20,214 nucleotides of DNA from a virus. Positions 1,675 through 11,064 of this stretch are shown here, one piece after another. Location of the stretch: the IMG/VR virus record IMGVR_UViG_3300022188_000064, positions 1-20,214 of that record. The stretch is one strand, 5' to 3'. The notes beneath the pieces are model-generated. The model was not told the origin of the DNA. It made no database searches and saw nothing but the letters and a program-made list of their open reading frames with translations. Positions within the stretch are counted from its first letter, which is position 1. Each line of letters starts with the position of its first letter. The position numbers and the translations under genes are program-made.

Positions 1675-1734
1675 TACAGACTGGTTTCGTACAGACGGGT
1701 TTGAAACCCGTCTCTACACCAAACACGTCTCTAC
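1675..1734. repeat. Palindromic element family 1, composite copy (intergenic)
   Basis: The core at 1693-1713 is a perfect inverted repeat, AGACGGGTTT-G-AAACCCGTCT. It extends to a GTACAGACG...CGTCTCTAC unit at 1689-1717. A half copy precedes it (GTACAGACTGGTTTC) and another follows (ACCAAACACGTCTCTAC). It fills the gap between the protease/scaffold stop and the decoration gene ribosome site. A hairpin here could influence the mRNA, but without a U-tract it is not a classical terminator. Confidence 0.85.
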
Positions 1735-1736
1735 AA

Positions 1737-2270
1737 TTATTTTTTTAGTTCAACCTTGGCTGCTATGGATTCACCGGCTTCCTGATCAGCTTTTGCCTCT
1801 GCAAACTCAGCCGAATCCCCTGCCTTTTCCTTTTTTGCCAGTTCCTCAAAAATCTTTGATTTGCTGAATCCTTCCAGGTAATCCTGAAACCACTGCCTTG
1901 AATTTTTTTTGTTATTTTCGGAAAACGAAATTTCCTTTTCCGCATCCAGTGTCTGCATAAAGCCCACAAGCCCGGAATCGAGCCAGGAGGGCGGTATCTT
2001 ACCTGATGCGGCCAATGTGTTGCAAAAGTCCGTAATCTCCTTTTCTGCGGCCTTACGCCTAACCTGCGCCTGCTTTTCCGCGAACTCCGCGGTCAGCTTC
2101 TCCCTCTCTGCAGCAACACCATCCTTTTTTGCCTGTTCGATATCGGCTTCACTGAAGACAGAGACGGGTTTGGAACCCGGCCCTGCGAATGTCCCTGCCG
2201 GCAGGTCAATATCCGAACCTTCGATTTTTTTCCAAAATTTAAATGCCTCCAAAAATTCCGCAAACTTCAT
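1737..2270 (-). CDS. Scaffold protein from internal start (Mu Z-like)
   Basis: Inside the protease gene, in the same frame, an ATG at 2270 is preceded five bases upstream by a perfect AAGGAGG ribosome site. Translation from here would give a 177-residue protein beginning MKFAEFLEAFKFWKK and containing only the helical scaffold half. In phage Mu, gene Z is nested in I in just this way, giving a protease and a separate scaffold from one reading frame. The strong ribosome site is seen directly; the function is inferred from Mu. Confidence 0.65.
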   Translation of the reverse strand: MKFAEFLEAFKFWKKIEGSDIDLPAGTFAGPGSKPVSVFSEADIEQAKKDGVAAEREKLTAEFAEKQAQVRRKAAEKEITDFCNTLAASGKIPPSWLDSGLVGFMQTLDAEKEISFSENNKKNSRQWFQDYLEGFSKSKIFEELAKKEKAGDSAEFAEAKADQEAGESIAAKVELKK

Positions 2271-2852
2271 ATCATCCTCCTTGTTATTGTTTTTTGCCGC
2301 ATCCCGAATATAGTCCACATCCCAGTCCGGGATAATTGAATCCGCTTTTTCCTTTCCCTCTTTCTCGATAAAATAATCCCGCATTTTACGGAAAATCCCA
2401 CCTACAGTCTCCCATGTCCAGGAATCGACTTCACCAAATTCAAATGTGACTGACTGATCATCATCTGAAAAAGACAGATCCGCCAGACCTTTTACTGCCG
2501 GAGGCGCGCCGCCTAAAAAGCCGACGTGCCGCAATCTTCCATCCGGATAAAAACTTGCAGAACGCTTTTTAAACAGGCCTTTTTCAACGGATTGAGAAAA
2601 TTCAGGGACCACATCCTTGAATTTTGCCAGAAGTGTGCCGCCTTTTTCTTTTAAGTCCGACACCCATCCGAATGCCGGCGAGTTGTCTTTTGGATGACCC
2701 GCCACCAGGGGCGGCTCATGATAAGAAGGCTTAAATGTCTCTAATGCCTTTAAAATAACAGCATCGCCATCATGTTCATGGCCGTTGCTGTCAATCTGTT
2801 TTCCGCCTTTGAAAATTTCTATCCAGTCATCGAATCCTTTAAAATTTTTCAT
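1737..2852 (-). CDS. Capsid maturation protease/scaffold (Mu gpI-like)
   Basis: A 371-residue protein resembling the Mu gpI protease/scaffold. The N-terminal half (about 1-130) carries the family pattern: PPLVAGHP around His53, LFKKRSASFYPDG around Ser98/Ser100, and a HVGFLGGAPPAVKGL block. The His and Ser residues are candidate catalytic groups of this serine protease family. The C-terminal part (about 235-371) is charged, with many Ala, Glu and Lys, and looks like a coiled scaffold. The start ATG overlaps the gpG stop (ATGA), so translation is probably coupled. Residues about 223-234 (AGPGSKPVSVF) are encoded by a diverged palindromic element in the linker; removing them restores a GTFSEAD join. 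Confidence 0.85.
   Translation of the reverse strand: MKNFKGFDDWIEIFKGGKQIDSNGHEHDGDAVILKALETFKPSYHEPPLVAGHPKDNSPAFGWVSDLKEKGGTLLAKFKDVVPEFSQSVEKGLFKKRSASFYPDGRLRHVGFLGGAPPAVKGLADLSFSDDDQSVTFEFGEVDSWTWETVGGIFRKMRDYFIEKEGKEKADSIIPDWDVDYIRDAAKNNNKEDDMKFAEFLEAFKFWKKIEGSDIDLPAGTFAGPGSKPVSVFSEADIEQAKKDGVAAEREKLTAEFAEKQAQVRRKAAEKEITDFCNTLAASGKIPPSWLDSGLVGFMQTLDAEKEISFSENNKKNSRQWFQDYLEGFSKSKIFEELAKKEKAGDSAEFAEAKADQEAGESIAAKVELKK
2158..2184. repeat. Palindromic element family 1, diverged copy inside the protease gene
   Basis: The plus strand reads AGAGACGGGTTTGGAACCCG and then decays into GCCCTG, a mutated copy of the element seen intact at 3419-3447. It is in frame within the protease/scaffold gene and adds roughly 11 residues to the linker between the two halves. 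Confidence 0.65.
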
Positions 2853-3400
2853 CTTTTCCCTCCCAGGAGATAATCCGAAAGCGACTCCCTGATTTCATCC
2901 CAGTCTTCGGTTTGCACCATCATAAACGGACGGGCAGGAATATCGCCAAAGGGCAGTGTTATTTCCCGTGTTCGTTTATGCGCTTTCACGTTTTGCCTCA
3001 CCCCTCTGACATTACGCACATGCGCTTTAACCTGCTGAGTAATGGAAAATGCGCCGAACGATCCTTTTTTAGCACCAAACTGATGAACAGCGGCATAAAC
3101 ACGGTTTGTTCCGATAACAGTCCTGTCTTTATAAGCCTTAGAATGGATTGAGTTCATCAGGTGGCCTTCCTCCCTGAGAATGGAAACCCCTTTGCCTCTT
3201 CGGTTTTCAGTGGTTTCAGAATGAGCTTTCCATCTTTGCGGACGCCCTTCCTTTTCAAAATTGCGGACAATCGATGTACGCACAATCTGCCCGATAATAT
3301 TCATGGCCGGTGTCAGACTATGCGTCCGCCGCTGTATCCGCGCGAGCAGTCTTTTAACGCCCTGATCTTCAATTCTTATATCCATCATCGTGCCGGTCAT
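2849..3400 (-). CDS. Phage virion morphogenesis protein (Mu gpG-like)
   Basis: A 183-residue protein of the phage virion morphogenesis family (Mu gpG), thought to act in head completion or tail joining. Family features are the N-terminal helix with LARIQRRTHSLTPAMNIIGQ, the Trp-containing segment EKEGRPQRWKAHSETTENRR, the ILREEGHLMNSIHS block, YAAVHQFGAKKG, and the C-terminal IPARPFMMVQTEDWDEI motif. ATG at 3400 is chosen because an AAAGGA site lies upstream; in-frame ATGs a few codons later are possible. It follows gpF and overlaps the next gene by ATGA. Confidence 0.85.
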   Translation of the reverse strand: MTGTMMDIRIEDQGVKRLLARIQRRTHSLTPAMNIIGQIVRTSIVRNFEKEGRPQRWKAHSETTENRRGKGVSILREEGHLMNSIHSKAYKDRTVIGTNRVYAAVHQFGAKKGSFGAFSITQQVKAHVRNVRGVRQNVKAHKRTREITLPFGDIPARPFMMVQTEDWDEIRESLSDYLLGGKR

Positions 3401-3418
3401 TTAACACATCCTTTTATT

Positions 3419-3447
3419 GTAGAGACGGGTTTTAAACCCGTCTCTAC
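3419..3447. repeat. Palindromic element family 1, perfect copy (intergenic)
   Basis: A perfect 29-base inverted repeat: GTAGAGACGGGTTT, one T, then AAACCCGTCTCTAC. It lies 19 bases upstream of the gpG start on the minus strand. It is the most intact of the four copies in the capsid module and defines the element boundaries. Confidence 0.9.
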
Positions 3448-3502
3448 TTGACTTTCTGTTACAATAACGTATAAATAAACATATCGATTGTTCCGGTACG
3501 GA

Positions 3503-3550
3503 CCGCGGCTTCAAAGCCGGAGCATGGCGGCCGGGCTGCTGCGGAGCCCG
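3503..3550. repeat. GC-rich double hairpin between gpF and gpG
   Basis: Two inverted repeats lie close together: CGGCTT-CA-AAGCCG (3506-3519) and CGGGCT-n7-AGCCCG (3532-3550). The stretch is much richer in GC than its surroundings. On the minus strand it begins about 13 bases after the gpF stop. It may be another REP-type element or a processing or mRNA-stability structure; no U-tract follows it. Confidence 0.5.
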
Positions 3551-3562
3551 AGCTTCTTTTTT

Positions 3563-4855
3563 TTATTCCTGCCTGGCCCATATCAATTTCCCCTGTCTTT
3601 GATTATTTAAATATGTAAGACTTCTCACTGGAATCATTGTTGACGATTCCATTATGCCGTTTACGGATTGCGCCACCATTAATAATCCCCGATTTTTTTT
3701 GAGTTTGACAGCTTTTATAATGCGCTGCCGCAATACGATTCTCCCCGTACCCTTATGCCGCTCAAACGAAAGCCATACCTCAAAAGGGTCATGCATCAGC
3801 TCAGTAAGAAACGGGACAAAAGACGCTCGATCTGCAGGAATATGTTTTGCTATCACCTCAGCGTTTACAAGCACGTCATATCTAAAAGTAGAGACGGGTT
3901 TGAAACCCGTCTGTACCAAACCCGTCTCTACAAATGTAAATATTTTTTCATCGGCGCCTAATACGGTTTTCAGCCGGGATTCAAGCTCCCCTGTGCCTTT
4001 GACGGCAGCGCCGATTTTTGCCTTTGCAGCATCTACAGGTATTTGTTCCGGTCTTCCTGCTGATTGCCAGTCACCAGCAGTCAATTTTTCCCACTGTTTT
4101 GCGCCCTGGGCTTTCCAGGCATCCATTGCGTTTGAGGATAATTGTTTTCCCCAGGAAGCTTCCCCAATATTATAATCCCAGCCCGGATCAATTCCCTTTG
4201 GTATTTTATGTATTTTACCGGTCTTTTTGCTTTTCCAATCATAATGCTCTATTTTCGGAGCTTTGGTCTTTACGGGATTCTGGCCGCCAGCCTCTTCTTT
4301 TTTTATTTTTTCAACTTCCCTGGCAGAATGGTTGACGATTCCGCACTTGCACCCCCAGCCGTTTGGCGGGTAGTGCGTTTTCCAAAACGAATCACCTGCA
4401 GGCAGTATAAGATTATACCATTTGACATGTTCCGGACGCGGGAATCTTGAGTTAGAGGCTACATACCGGAGAAAGGGTCTGGCTTTTAAAACTTCATGGC
4501 CGAACATCTGTTTATAATGGCCTGCGGCATATGCTGTTTTAATGTTTGTGTTAAATATCACGCTGGTTCTCCAGCCCTTACCGCCCTTATATTTCCAGCC
4601 GTGGCGCTTGATTATATCGTCAAAATCCTCTCTGAATTGCGCTATTGTTGTGCCGTCTGTGATACCCTTTTCAACTGCCTCGTACAGGTCGGAAACAAGC
4701 TGCGTTTTCATGGCGCCGGCAATTACAAAACCCCTGGCATGCATCCCCTGCCAGAGCTCTTCCCATGTTTTTGATGGAAGTTTGACTTTTTTTTTAAAAT
4801 GATCAATCGCTTCGTCAAAGGGGAGGTCGAATACTTTAGTTTCCGGTATCGGCAT
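3563..4855 (-). CDS. Head morphogenesis protein gpF-like with C-terminal nuclease-type domain
   Basis: A 430-residue minor head protein of the SPP1 gp7/Mu gpF family, which associates with the portal during head assembly. Residues about 100-180 carry the family core: NIKTAYAAGHYKQM, then RPFLRYVASNSRFPRPEHV and the HYPPNGWGCKCGI motif with its Cys pair. The C-terminal part (about 325-428; VLVNAEVIAKHI, FEVWLSFE, RIVLRQRIIKAV, GLLMVAQSVNG, RQGKLIWA) resembles the phage PBECR-type (barnase/EndoU/colicin/RelE-like) domain often fused to gpF. Residues about 309-323 (VETGLVQTGFKPVST) come from an inserted palindromic element. ATG at 4855 is chosen for its GGGAGG site five bases upstream; it overlaps the end of the portal gene. 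Confidence 0.85.
   Translation of the reverse strand: MPIPETKVFDLPFDEAIDHFKKKVKLPSKTWEELWQGMHARGFVIAGAMKTQLVSDLYEAVEKGITDGTTIAQFREDFDDIIKRHGWKYKGGKGWRTSVIFNTNIKTAYAAGHYKQMFGHEVLKARPFLRYVASNSRFPRPEHVKWYNLILPAGDSFWKTHYPPNGWGCKCGIVNHSAREVEKIKKEEAGGQNPVKTKAPKIEHYDWKSKKTGKIHKIPKGIDPGWDYNIGEASWGKQLSSNAMDAWKAQGAKQWEKLTAGDWQSAGRPEQIPVDAAKAKIGAAVKGTGELESRLKTVLGADEKIFTFVETGLVQTGFKPVSTFRYDVLVNAEVIAKHIPADRASFVPFLTELMHDPFEVWLSFERHKGTGRIVLRQRIIKAVKLKKNRGLLMVAQSVNGIMESSTMIPVRSLTYLNNQRQGKLIWARQE
3888..3931. repeat. Palindromic element family 1, copy in frame inside gpF
   Basis: The plus strand reads GTAGAGACGGGTTT-G-AAACCCGTCTGTAC, then CAAACCCGTCTCTAC, so it is one full unit plus a half unit, 44 bases. The reading frame passes straight through it on the minus strand and yields a 15-residue insertion in the loop before the C-terminal domain. 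The gene stays open. Confidence 0.9.
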
Positions 4856-6317
4856 CAAACCTCCCTGTAAGATCGGCCAGCGTCATGGCTTTTTGCATTA
4901 AATCGCCGAGACTGCTTTCGTCTACATCCCGATAAAGATCGAGCAATTCGTCCTGAAATTCTTCAAGAGTTGCTGCTTTCTCAAGGAGCTTTTTTGCAGC
5001 ATTGATCTCGTTGTCCATTGATGTGGCGTCAAGCGCTTTGTCTGTAATAATGTCCGGTGATGCGGATATGCCGTCGTCACCTTCGACAAATTCCGTTTTA
5101 TTATTCTCTTGCTCCTCTTTTTTTTTCGCAAGTTCAAAATCAGTCTCCTGAAGATTGTAAACCCTCTGATAATAGCTTGCCGTAAACTCGACACCCTGCC
5201 TCTCAAGCTGTTCATCCCGCTGGCTTCTTTCGTTTTGAATATCCTCTTCTTTATAAAAGCTGAACAAGGGAGAAGATGAACCAGCAAAATTAAGCTCCAC
5301 AACCCATCTGAAAAGCAGGTTAAAGGCCGACTTGACCATCTGCTTATCCTGTTCCACCAGATCAGCCCTGACCTCCATATGCTCTTTTGTGGCGGCAAAA
5401 GACCCGCCCTTGTCAAGCTCCGTGGTCAGGGTTTGCCCCAGAATGGCTTTTGATATTTCCCTGTTTGATGTGCTGATCAGTTTTTCGTAAATATCCGCAC
5501 TGGCGGTTTTGCCTGCAGCCTCTGTAATCTCAACGCTTTCATCATTATTAATAACAGCAGCAGCATCCTGGACCATATTTACAAGTCTTGTAAGCAAAAG
5601 CCCGCGTTCAGTCTCGTTTGTCTGCCTCGGAACCTTGCCGATAATCCAGGGCATCCCGTATTTTTCCGTAAATATGGCCCAGAATTTAAACCCGCCCCGT
5701 TTGAAAGCTACTGGCCAGAAACAGCGGGATAAAACACGTTCCCCATAAGGGTTTTGATAAGAGGCATGATGCCGCGGCAATAAAAATTTATACGGCGGCA
5801 TCTCTTCACCTTCTATCATATTGTCAATGGATAAAAACCTTAAACGGTTATCTGCATCAAACCCAAACCATTCCGGAGGTTTCCCCGCCACACGTTCAGG
5901 GAGCCAGGCCGACCCTGATTTCCAGATCACCTCAATGGGGCTCATTCCAAAGAACGGAGCCTCCAGCATATCTGTAATAATTTGGTGAACGTCCAGCGTA
6001 TCCATCATATTTTCAATCATCCGCAGCGCTTTTTTATTGGCCGGCTCACCCTCTTTTGCAGATTCACGGATTTCCCATTCGCAGGACAATGCCCCTGCCT
6101 TTCTGCTTTGTGCGCAGGAAAACACATGGGCATCTGACATTAGCTGGCGATATACGGTGATATCCTGCCCGAGTTTCGCAAGCACAGGGTCAGGATCAGG
6201 CAAAAGACCCATAACGCCCATCCAGTCAACAGACCGGGACCGCGGTGCAATTTCTGCGGCTAACGATTTTTTGTCGTCTAATTCAACAAAATCATTTTCA
6301 TTGATGTACAGTTTCAT
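4836..6317 (-). CDS. Portal protein, DUF935 family (Mu gp29-like)
   Basis: A 493-residue protein of the DUF935 family, the portal of Mu-like phages. It should form the dodecameric ring at one capsid vertex through which DNA is packaged. Recognisable segments are DITVYRQLMSDAHVFSCAQ (about 51-70), the FFGMSPIEVIWK block (about 122-133), the FWAIFTEKYGMPWIIGK core (about 213-230), and ISKAILGQTLTTELDKGGSF (about 290-310), all typical of the family. The acidic Lys/Glu-rich C-terminus is also normal. Its ATG directly follows the terminase TAA, and its end overlaps the gpF start, so the three genes are coupled. Confidence 0.9.
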   Translation of the reverse strand: MKLYINENDFVELDDKKSLAAEIAPRSRSVDWMGVMGLLPDPDPVLAKLGQDITVYRQLMSDAHVFSCAQSRKAGALSCEWEIRESAKEGEPANKKALRMIENMMDTLDVHQIITDMLEAPFFGMSPIEVIWKSGSAWLPERVAGKPPEWFGFDADNRLRFLSIDNMIEGEEMPPYKFLLPRHHASYQNPYGERVLSRCFWPVAFKRGGFKFWAIFTEKYGMPWIIGKVPRQTNETERGLLLTRLVNMVQDAAAVINNDESVEITEAAGKTASADIYEKLISTSNREISKAILGQTLTTELDKGGSFAATKEHMEVRADLVEQDKQMVKSAFNLLFRWVVELNFAGSSSPLFSFYKEEDIQNERSQRDEQLERQGVEFTASYYQRVYNLQETDFELAKKKEEQENNKTEFVEGDDGISASPDIITDKALDATSMDNEINAAKKLLEKAATLEEFQDELLDLYRDVDESSLGDLMQKAMTLADLTGRFDADTGN

Positions 6318-8732: not shown

Positions 8733-8760
8733 GTAAGGGCACAGTGATCCGTGCCCTTAC
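8733..8760. repeat. Palindromic element family 2, copy a
   Basis: An inverted repeat, GTAAGGGCAC-n8-GTGCCCTTAC, in the short gap between two lysis-region genes. Ten-base arms are perfect. It belongs with the GGGCACGA/TCGTGCCC group found downstream in this window. Confidence 0.75.
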
Positions 8761-9030: not shown

Positions 9031-9056
9031 TTTTTCTCCTTGTTAAAATTGATAAT

Positions 9057-9074
9057 GGCACGATGCTTCGTGCC
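9057..9074. repeat. Palindromic element family 2, copy b
   Basis: GGCACGA-n4-TCGTGCC, ending one base from the endolysin stop codon. The stem may protect the 3' side of the endolysin message; there is no U-tract. Confidence 0.75.
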
Positions 9075-9075
9075 T

Positions 9076-9525
9076 TTATTTAAATCGCGCCCCTACCATT
9101 TCCCGCAAAGGTCCTAACCGAATATTAGGACAGGTTTTGCCGGAAAATTCATTATGACCATGTATATTTTCAGATTTTAAATCGAATATTTTCACCAGGG
9201 CAAACAAAAGCCTGGGCAGGGATGAATATAATTGCTTCCCTGTAAAATGCCGCCGGCCAATCAGGCAGACCCCCACCGAAGTTTCATTGTAACCCCGGCA
9301 GTGAGCACCGACTTCATTAATTAACCGGCCGCGCTGTATAAGGCCGTCAAGTTTTAGATTGTATGGTTTACCCTGGGTTGCAACGCCGTTGGTGATAATA
9401 AAATGATACCCGCAGCCTTTCCAGCCGCGGGCTTTGTGCCAGGAATTTATGAGGTTCACGTCTCCAAAGTCTGAATCGGAGCAATGAATTATAATCTTTT
9501 CGATATCAGATATCTTGCGGATCAT
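9076..9525 (-). CDS. N-acetylmuramoyl-L-alanine amidase (endolysin)
   Basis: A 149-residue single-domain amidase of the T7 lysozyme (amidase_2) type, which cuts the bond between N-acetylmuramic acid and L-alanine in peptidoglycan to lyse the host. Predicted zinc ligands are His14 (IIIHCSDS), His124 (HGHNEF) and Cys132 (GKTCPN). Lys130 and Tyr40 (CGYHF) correspond to the catalytic Lys and Tyr of T7 lysozyme; the His-Lys-Cys spacing of +6 and +8 is the same. No signal peptide is present, so it needs a holin or similar to reach the wall. ATG at 9525 is chosen because an AGGAGGG site lies five bases upstream. A strong hairpin with a T-tract lies directly before that site. Confidence 0.92.
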   Translation of the reverse strand: MIRKISDIEKIIIHCSDSDFGDVNLINSWHKARGWKGCGYHFIITNGVATQGKPYNLKLDGLIQRGRLINEVGAHCRGYNETSVGVCLIGRRHFTGKQLYSSLPRLLFALVKIFDLKSENIHGHNEFSGKTCPNIRLGPLREMVGARFK

Positions 9526-9613: not shown

Positions 9614-9641
9614 GCAGGAGCACGGCTCGCCGTGCTCCTGC
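9614..9641. repeat. Palindromic element family 2, copy c (long perfect stem)
   Basis: GCAGGAGCACGGC-TC-GCCGTGCTCCTGC, 13-base perfect arms. The A-tract after it on the plus strand means it is not a terminator in that direction, and on the minus strand it lacks a T-tract after the stem. It lies between the promoter candidate at 9671-9699 and the terminator-like hairpin at 9546-9597. Confidence 0.7.
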
Positions 9642-10591: not shown

Positions 10592-10594
10592 TCG

Positions 10595-10620
10595 TAGGGG
10601 CACGATGCTTCGTGCCCTTT
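10595..10620. repeat. Palindromic element family 2, copy d
   Basis: GTAGGGGCACGA, then TGCT, then TCGTGCCC (arms 10598-10605 and 10610-10617). It lies in the gap between the FN3-like gene and the rha promoter, touching the stop codon of the former. Confidence 0.8.
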
Positions 10621-11032: not shown

Positions 11033-11064
11033 CCGTAGGGGCATGAAGCATCGTGCCTCTACGG
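11033..11064. repeat. Palindromic element family 2, copy e
   Basis: CCGTAGGGGCATGA, a short loop, then TCGTGCCTCTACGG: an imperfect 32-base inverted repeat. It overlaps the stop codon of the small gene at 11059-11268, so the element supplies that gene's last codons. Confidence 0.75.

Follow-up and report, generated by a model that had tools for sequence, protein, structure and literature searches.

The question raised by the structural module of this phage is why one short palindrome recurs between and within genes for virion proteins, and how it could have entered them while leaving their reading frames open. The window, meaning the whole stretch of DNA analysed, is a virus record of 20,214 bases, and its phage is a Mu-like transposable phage with genes for transposases A and B, portal, gpF, protease, capsid and terminase.

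Palindrome copies in the window

The palindrome is 29 nt long and has the form GTAGAGACGGGTTT-N-AAACCCGTCTCTAC, with a central loop of a single base. When scored against the 29-nt consensus GTAGAGACGGGTTTNAAACCCGTCTCTAC, four copies match at 29/29 (3419-3447), 28/29 (1689-1717), 28/29 (3888-3916) and 23/29 (2158-2186) positions, compared with a top score of 19/29 in 100 shuffled windows. The half-site GACGGGTTT occurs eight times in 1694-3926 against 0.13 expected (0 of 100 shuffles). The perfect copy, GTAGAGACGGGTTTTAAACCCGTCTCTAC (3419-3447), is intergenic and is flanked by the tail-completion/Neck1 gene (2849-3400) and the stop of gpF. The second intergenic copy (1675-1734), flanked by the head decoration gene (1220-1654) and the protease stop, is a composite of the full palindrome at 1689-1717 and diverged flanking arms; it has at least four arms and is longer than the composite in gpF. 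The gpF gene (3563-4858, minus strand) encodes a Mu F-like head morphogenesis protein fused to a PBECR2 nuclease-like domain (Phage_Mu_F + PBECR2). Its 44-nt copy (3888-3931) comprises the full 29-nt palindrome and an extra 15-nt arm, so that the arm is present twice, and encodes in frame the peptide VETGLVQTGFKPVST (residues 310-324). The degenerate copy (2158-2186) lies in frame in a hypervariable linker of the head maturation protease gene (1737-2852, minus strand; phrog_976) and is read as GPGSKPVSV. The sequence-only reading, which had described four copies within 2.3 kb, two of them intergenic and two in frame in the protease and gpF, is borne out in number and in gene context, with scores far above those of the shuffled windows.

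That reading had also placed the gpF peptide in a linker, which has to be revised. In the AlphaFold model of gpF (mean pLDDT 73) the insert is a low-confidence loop (residues 313-323, pLDDT <50) between two strands (304-312 and 323-332) in the PBECR2 region; it occupies a beta-turn inside that domain and not a linker between domains. The portal model was set aside (mean pLDDT 43). Further palindromes with GTAGGGGC-like feet and other cores (e.g. GTAGGGGCATGAAGCATCGTGCCTCTAC) are found at 8733-8760, 9052-9079, 9614-9641, 10594-10617 and 11033-11064, and probably represent additional REP families of this phage. The head decoration gene ends in a trinucleotide-like repeat (1220-1270) that yields a poly-threonine tail; an ORF in the relative L007 (6694-7221) likewise ends in a threonine run.

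Filled and empty alleles, target replacement and reading frame

Two close relatives in IMG/VR, contigs L009 (3300022188_000113) and c71 (3300022188_000071; L007/L097/L108), share about 79-89% DNA identity with the window over the aligned blocks of the module. At the gpF site, in gene direction, the window reads ACATTT, the 44-nt composite and TTTTAG; c71 has a 29-nt single copy between ACATTT and TTTCAG, with junctions as in the window; and L009 has ACATTT-AAAACGTCAAA-TTTCAG, in which 11 nt of unrelated sequence stand in place of the element. The gpF of L009 (85% identical) and those of the more distant L117 and L132 carry a four-residue turn in place of VETGLVQTGFKPVST, reading EKEG and RSGQ in the latter two, and since these homologues share the short turn it is probably the ancestral state. 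Homologues without the palindrome thus lack the inserted residues, as the reading of gpF as an insertion had predicted. The portal gene (4836-6317, minus strand) presents the reverse arrangement, being free of the element in the window and filled in L009, which reads LYRDVETGFKPVSTIMQKAM where the window reads LYRDVDESSLGDLMQKAM; c71 is as the window at this site. The L009 protein has ETGFKPVSTI in place of DESSLGDL and is the sole sequence in the portal alignment with a length change there. These gpF and portal relatives were found by alignment queries; single-sequence scans gave none.

Other sites also vary among these phages. The intergenic copy at 3419-3447 occurs in the window only and is absent from L009 and c71, and c71 has no element at the counterpart of 1675-1734, where the spacer has diverged. 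The small-terminase-like protein of L009 contains a 44-mer; at that place the sequence of L110, whose match is 83% identical, is different and 15 nt shorter. The protease site holds the degenerate copy in the window, a 14-nt half element, AAACCCGTCTCTAC, in L009, and none in c71. An exact test of insertion at this site is not decisive; the case is weaker than that of gpF because the site is a naturally hypervariable linker, and the copy is too degenerate to prove insertion by itself. Taken as sequence comparison, the alleles support in-frame insertion of a mobile palindrome.

The element is not simply added to the protein, as had been assumed, because native residues are replaced. About 11, 23 and 29 nt of target are missing at gpF, portal and small terminase, respectively, and it is for this reason that the net length changes (+18 or +33 in gpF, +6 in portal and +15 in small terminase) are all multiples of three although 29 and 44 are not. 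Either the element replaces its target or the alleles are frame-neutral survivors of insertion plus deletion. At the portal site (n=1) the target already had GTAGA, the element's own foot, at the left junction, and no target motif was found outside the feet. Such replacement has not been documented as a hallmark of RAYTs (REP-associated tyrosine transposases), and template switching driven by hairpins would account for it too.

The palindrome offers the same set of frames in both orientations: one contains TAG, one encodes RDGF(E/Q)TRLY and one encodes VETG(L/F)KPVST. The earlier proposal of a harmless peptide in either orientation therefore holds for one frame, the others giving the stop or RDGF(E/Q)TRLY. 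Eight independent phage insertions lie in proteins with homology support, and every one of them is read in the VETG-type frame: gpF (window and c71), protease (window), portal and small terminase (L009), tape measure (c71), portal (L006) and, with a different core, protease (L117) and endolysin (L145). The same frame is used in five cellular genes with family support (TauE, a subtilase, HsdM, a two-component propeller protein and a Por-secretion protein), giving 13 of 13, for which the chance is about 1 in 8000 if both open frames were equally tolerated. This tally is restricted to ORFs supported by a family match or by homology to phage proteins and does not take every open frame as a gene; it leaves out L053 (other frame, with the element upstream of the conserved domain, probably in a leader) and L013 (no family). 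In the type I restriction methylase HsdM (L063:224-1429) the in-frame peptide is VQTGLKPVST. A second element with identical feet, GTAGAGACAAGGCATGCCTTGTCTCTAC, is present in three related phages (L097:10517-10544, L114:8651-8678 and L145:1066-1093), the L145 copy lying in frame in a GH108 endolysin.

Relation to bacterial REPs and RAYT genes

The motif extends beyond this phage. In a scan of 84,980 species genomes for the exact core of 20 bases, the core was found in 77 genome stretches, mainly from Flavobacterium and other Bacteroidota, the remainder including some Deltaproteobacteria, Nitrospirae, Lentisphaerae and Patescibacteria. Among 101 exact cores, 64 are flanked on both sides by GTA/TAC-type feet, and beyond the feet no base is strongly preferred. 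Five exact cores in unrelated records (L004, L005, L008, L011 and L060) have AAA/TTT feet and appear to be intrinsic terminators, so that matching the core is not by itself enough to call a REP. The exact 19-nt core is present in 1-13 copies per genome (21 genomes, diverged copies uncounted), which is low beside the over a hundred copies often found for classical REPs (PMC2817692) and weighs somewhat against the reading as a REP. Rfam gave no match to the palindrome.

The element is a palindrome within the 20-40 bp range, with 5′ GTAG and 3′ CTAC. A recurrent class of ORFs carries it in frame, with a PNHxH motif followed by the palindrome peptide and then a conserved C-terminal region. All 12 aligned HUH ORFs of this kind match PF01797 (Y1_Tnp) and NF047646 (REP_Tyr_transpos), the one NF047646 match table shown giving a score below the model's curated cut-off. 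In the 12 ORFs the insert lies after PNHxH and before the conserved C-terminal region, that is, between the HUH and Y motifs, and in two Flavobacterium records (L030 and L055) further copies flank the RAYT ORF. Quentin et al. (2018, PMC6006769) described double-foot REPs within tnpAREP genes of subclass 2.4. The REPs of that subclass likewise have 5′ GTAG and 3′ CTAC feet and a long stem, and their cognate copies flank tnpAREP and enter it between the HuH and Y motifs with the frame unbroken; the placement of our element in and beside RAYT genes is therefore an arrangement already published. These features make a GTAG-tagged double-foot REP the best reading of the palindrome. A RAYT-like ORF of Flavobacterium sp. 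HJJ (L035:4369-4689) holds five palindromes with a 75-nt period, all in frame.

The phage record carries no RAYT, and a source in the host was considered. Among 85 genomes from the class of G001 and 389 from the class of G008, the best terminase relative (75% identical) lies in a prophage of G139, a genome in the class of a Desulfobacterales MAG (Desulfobacteria). That genome has no copy matching GTAGAGAC-n-GTCTCTAC, and has two RAYT-like genes, each with its own double-foot REP of another core, in frame. From the terminase identity and these RAYT-like genes we infer that the window phage probably has a host in Desulfobacterota and that such hosts have REP-RAYT systems.

Origin of the insertions and their consequences

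We propose, with good though not full confidence, that the palindrome is a double-foot REP linked to a host RAYT/TnpAREP of subclass 2.4 and mobilised by it in trans, with repeated entry into Mu-like phages. The REP is non-autonomous and 29 nt long, with GTAG as its 5′ foot and CTAC as its 3′ foot, and forms a hairpin when single stranded; the HUH tyrosine transposase (RAYT) of the host would move it in trans. Acting on single-stranded phage DNA at replication, the RAYT would insert the hairpin and swap out a short target stretch, with no target motif beyond the element's own feet. Copies in essential genes would survive only where the gene's length changes by a multiple of three overall and translation of the element gives V-E-T-G-(L/F)-K-P-V-S-T, a short, flexible peptide sited in turns or linkers; duplication of arms in 15-nt units would keep the frame. 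Selection acting on the phage protein would then determine which frames and locations persist. The host RAYT would have performed the insertions, and the phage would gain nothing by them.

We infer the RAYT step from linkage, and its main rival is hairpin template switching. Spread without a transposase, by template switching or illegitimate recombination during the replicative transposition of the phage on a host-derived REP template, would account for the replaced target (about 11, 23 and 29 nt) without evident target duplication, for arms that are 15-nt tandem units and for the GTAGA present beforehand at the left portal junction. It is nevertheless unlikely, given the sharp ends at the GTAG and CTAC feet, the flanks not shared between sites and the linkage of the element to RAYT genes in several phyla. 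The copies might instead be late-operon attenuators or terminators kept by selection, as their strong RNA folds (-20.9 and -27.9 kcal/mol; z -6.7 and -7.5), the two intergenic sites and the terminator-like feet on five exact cores elsewhere would suggest. This we regard as very improbable, because presence varies among close relatives, some copies lie within genes, there is no Rfam match, and the stems are not of intrinsic-terminator form, the T tracts beside them being interrupted.

The earlier comparison with Rickettsia palindromic elements (RPEs) captures the logic of the case, a selfish palindrome coding in frame for a tolerated peptide, and does not extend to the element itself. RPEs are about 150 bp long (review PMC10969869), have been described from Rickettsia and lack RAYT linkage in those descriptions, whereas the present element has 29 nt and is RAYT-linked, and 0 of the 77 core-bearing stretches are from Rickettsiales; a system of that kind unrelated to REPs is hardly credible. 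It had further been suggested that the inserts reflect either tolerance or a decaying prophage. Four inserts in 2.3 kb might indeed be expected where virion genes are no longer needed, but dN/dS among relatives is 0.03-0.19 where computable (gpF, portal, protease, capsid and terminase), the ORFs are intact and open in several relatives, and the filled gpF state has been kept between the window and c71 at a dS of 0.47. The phage proteins are under purifying selection, which means tolerance and not decay; these tests refute decay, to which we give almost no weight, except in the case of a very recent death of the window phage alone.

The novelty of the finding is one of location, a REP having landed several times in structural genes of a Mu-like phage family, with related copies in frame in portal, small terminase, tape measure, protease and endolysin genes. 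Relative to the subclass 2.4 REPs, the element here enters virion, packaging and lysis genes, shows filled and empty alleles and has no RAYT on the phage record. The GTAG REP superfamily (Di Nocera et al. 2013, PMC3733652) also comprises short GTAG palindromes with RAYT linkage and copies inside cellular genes; that paper describes such copies in chromosomal genes, and no word starting with 'phage' occurs in its text, whereas here allelic junctions with replaced target are seen. We found no description of REPs in phage structural genes in the literature searched, the coverage of which was incomplete, and we claim no priority.

The insertions show that a foreign peptide of 10-15 residues can be accommodated in essential portal, head and lysis proteins, sometimes in place of conserved native residues. 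Filled and empty alleles in small phage genomes provide defined junctions, a frame readout and a test bed for RAYT activity. It is possible, though we hold it only tentatively and lean against it, that REPs are moving now in phages, host RAYTs exchanging a short stretch of target for the hairpin while the phage replicates, and that transposable phages act as carriers of the elements from one bacterial lineage to another; if true, phage-borne REP transfer would help to explain the occurrence of one identical element in many phyla.
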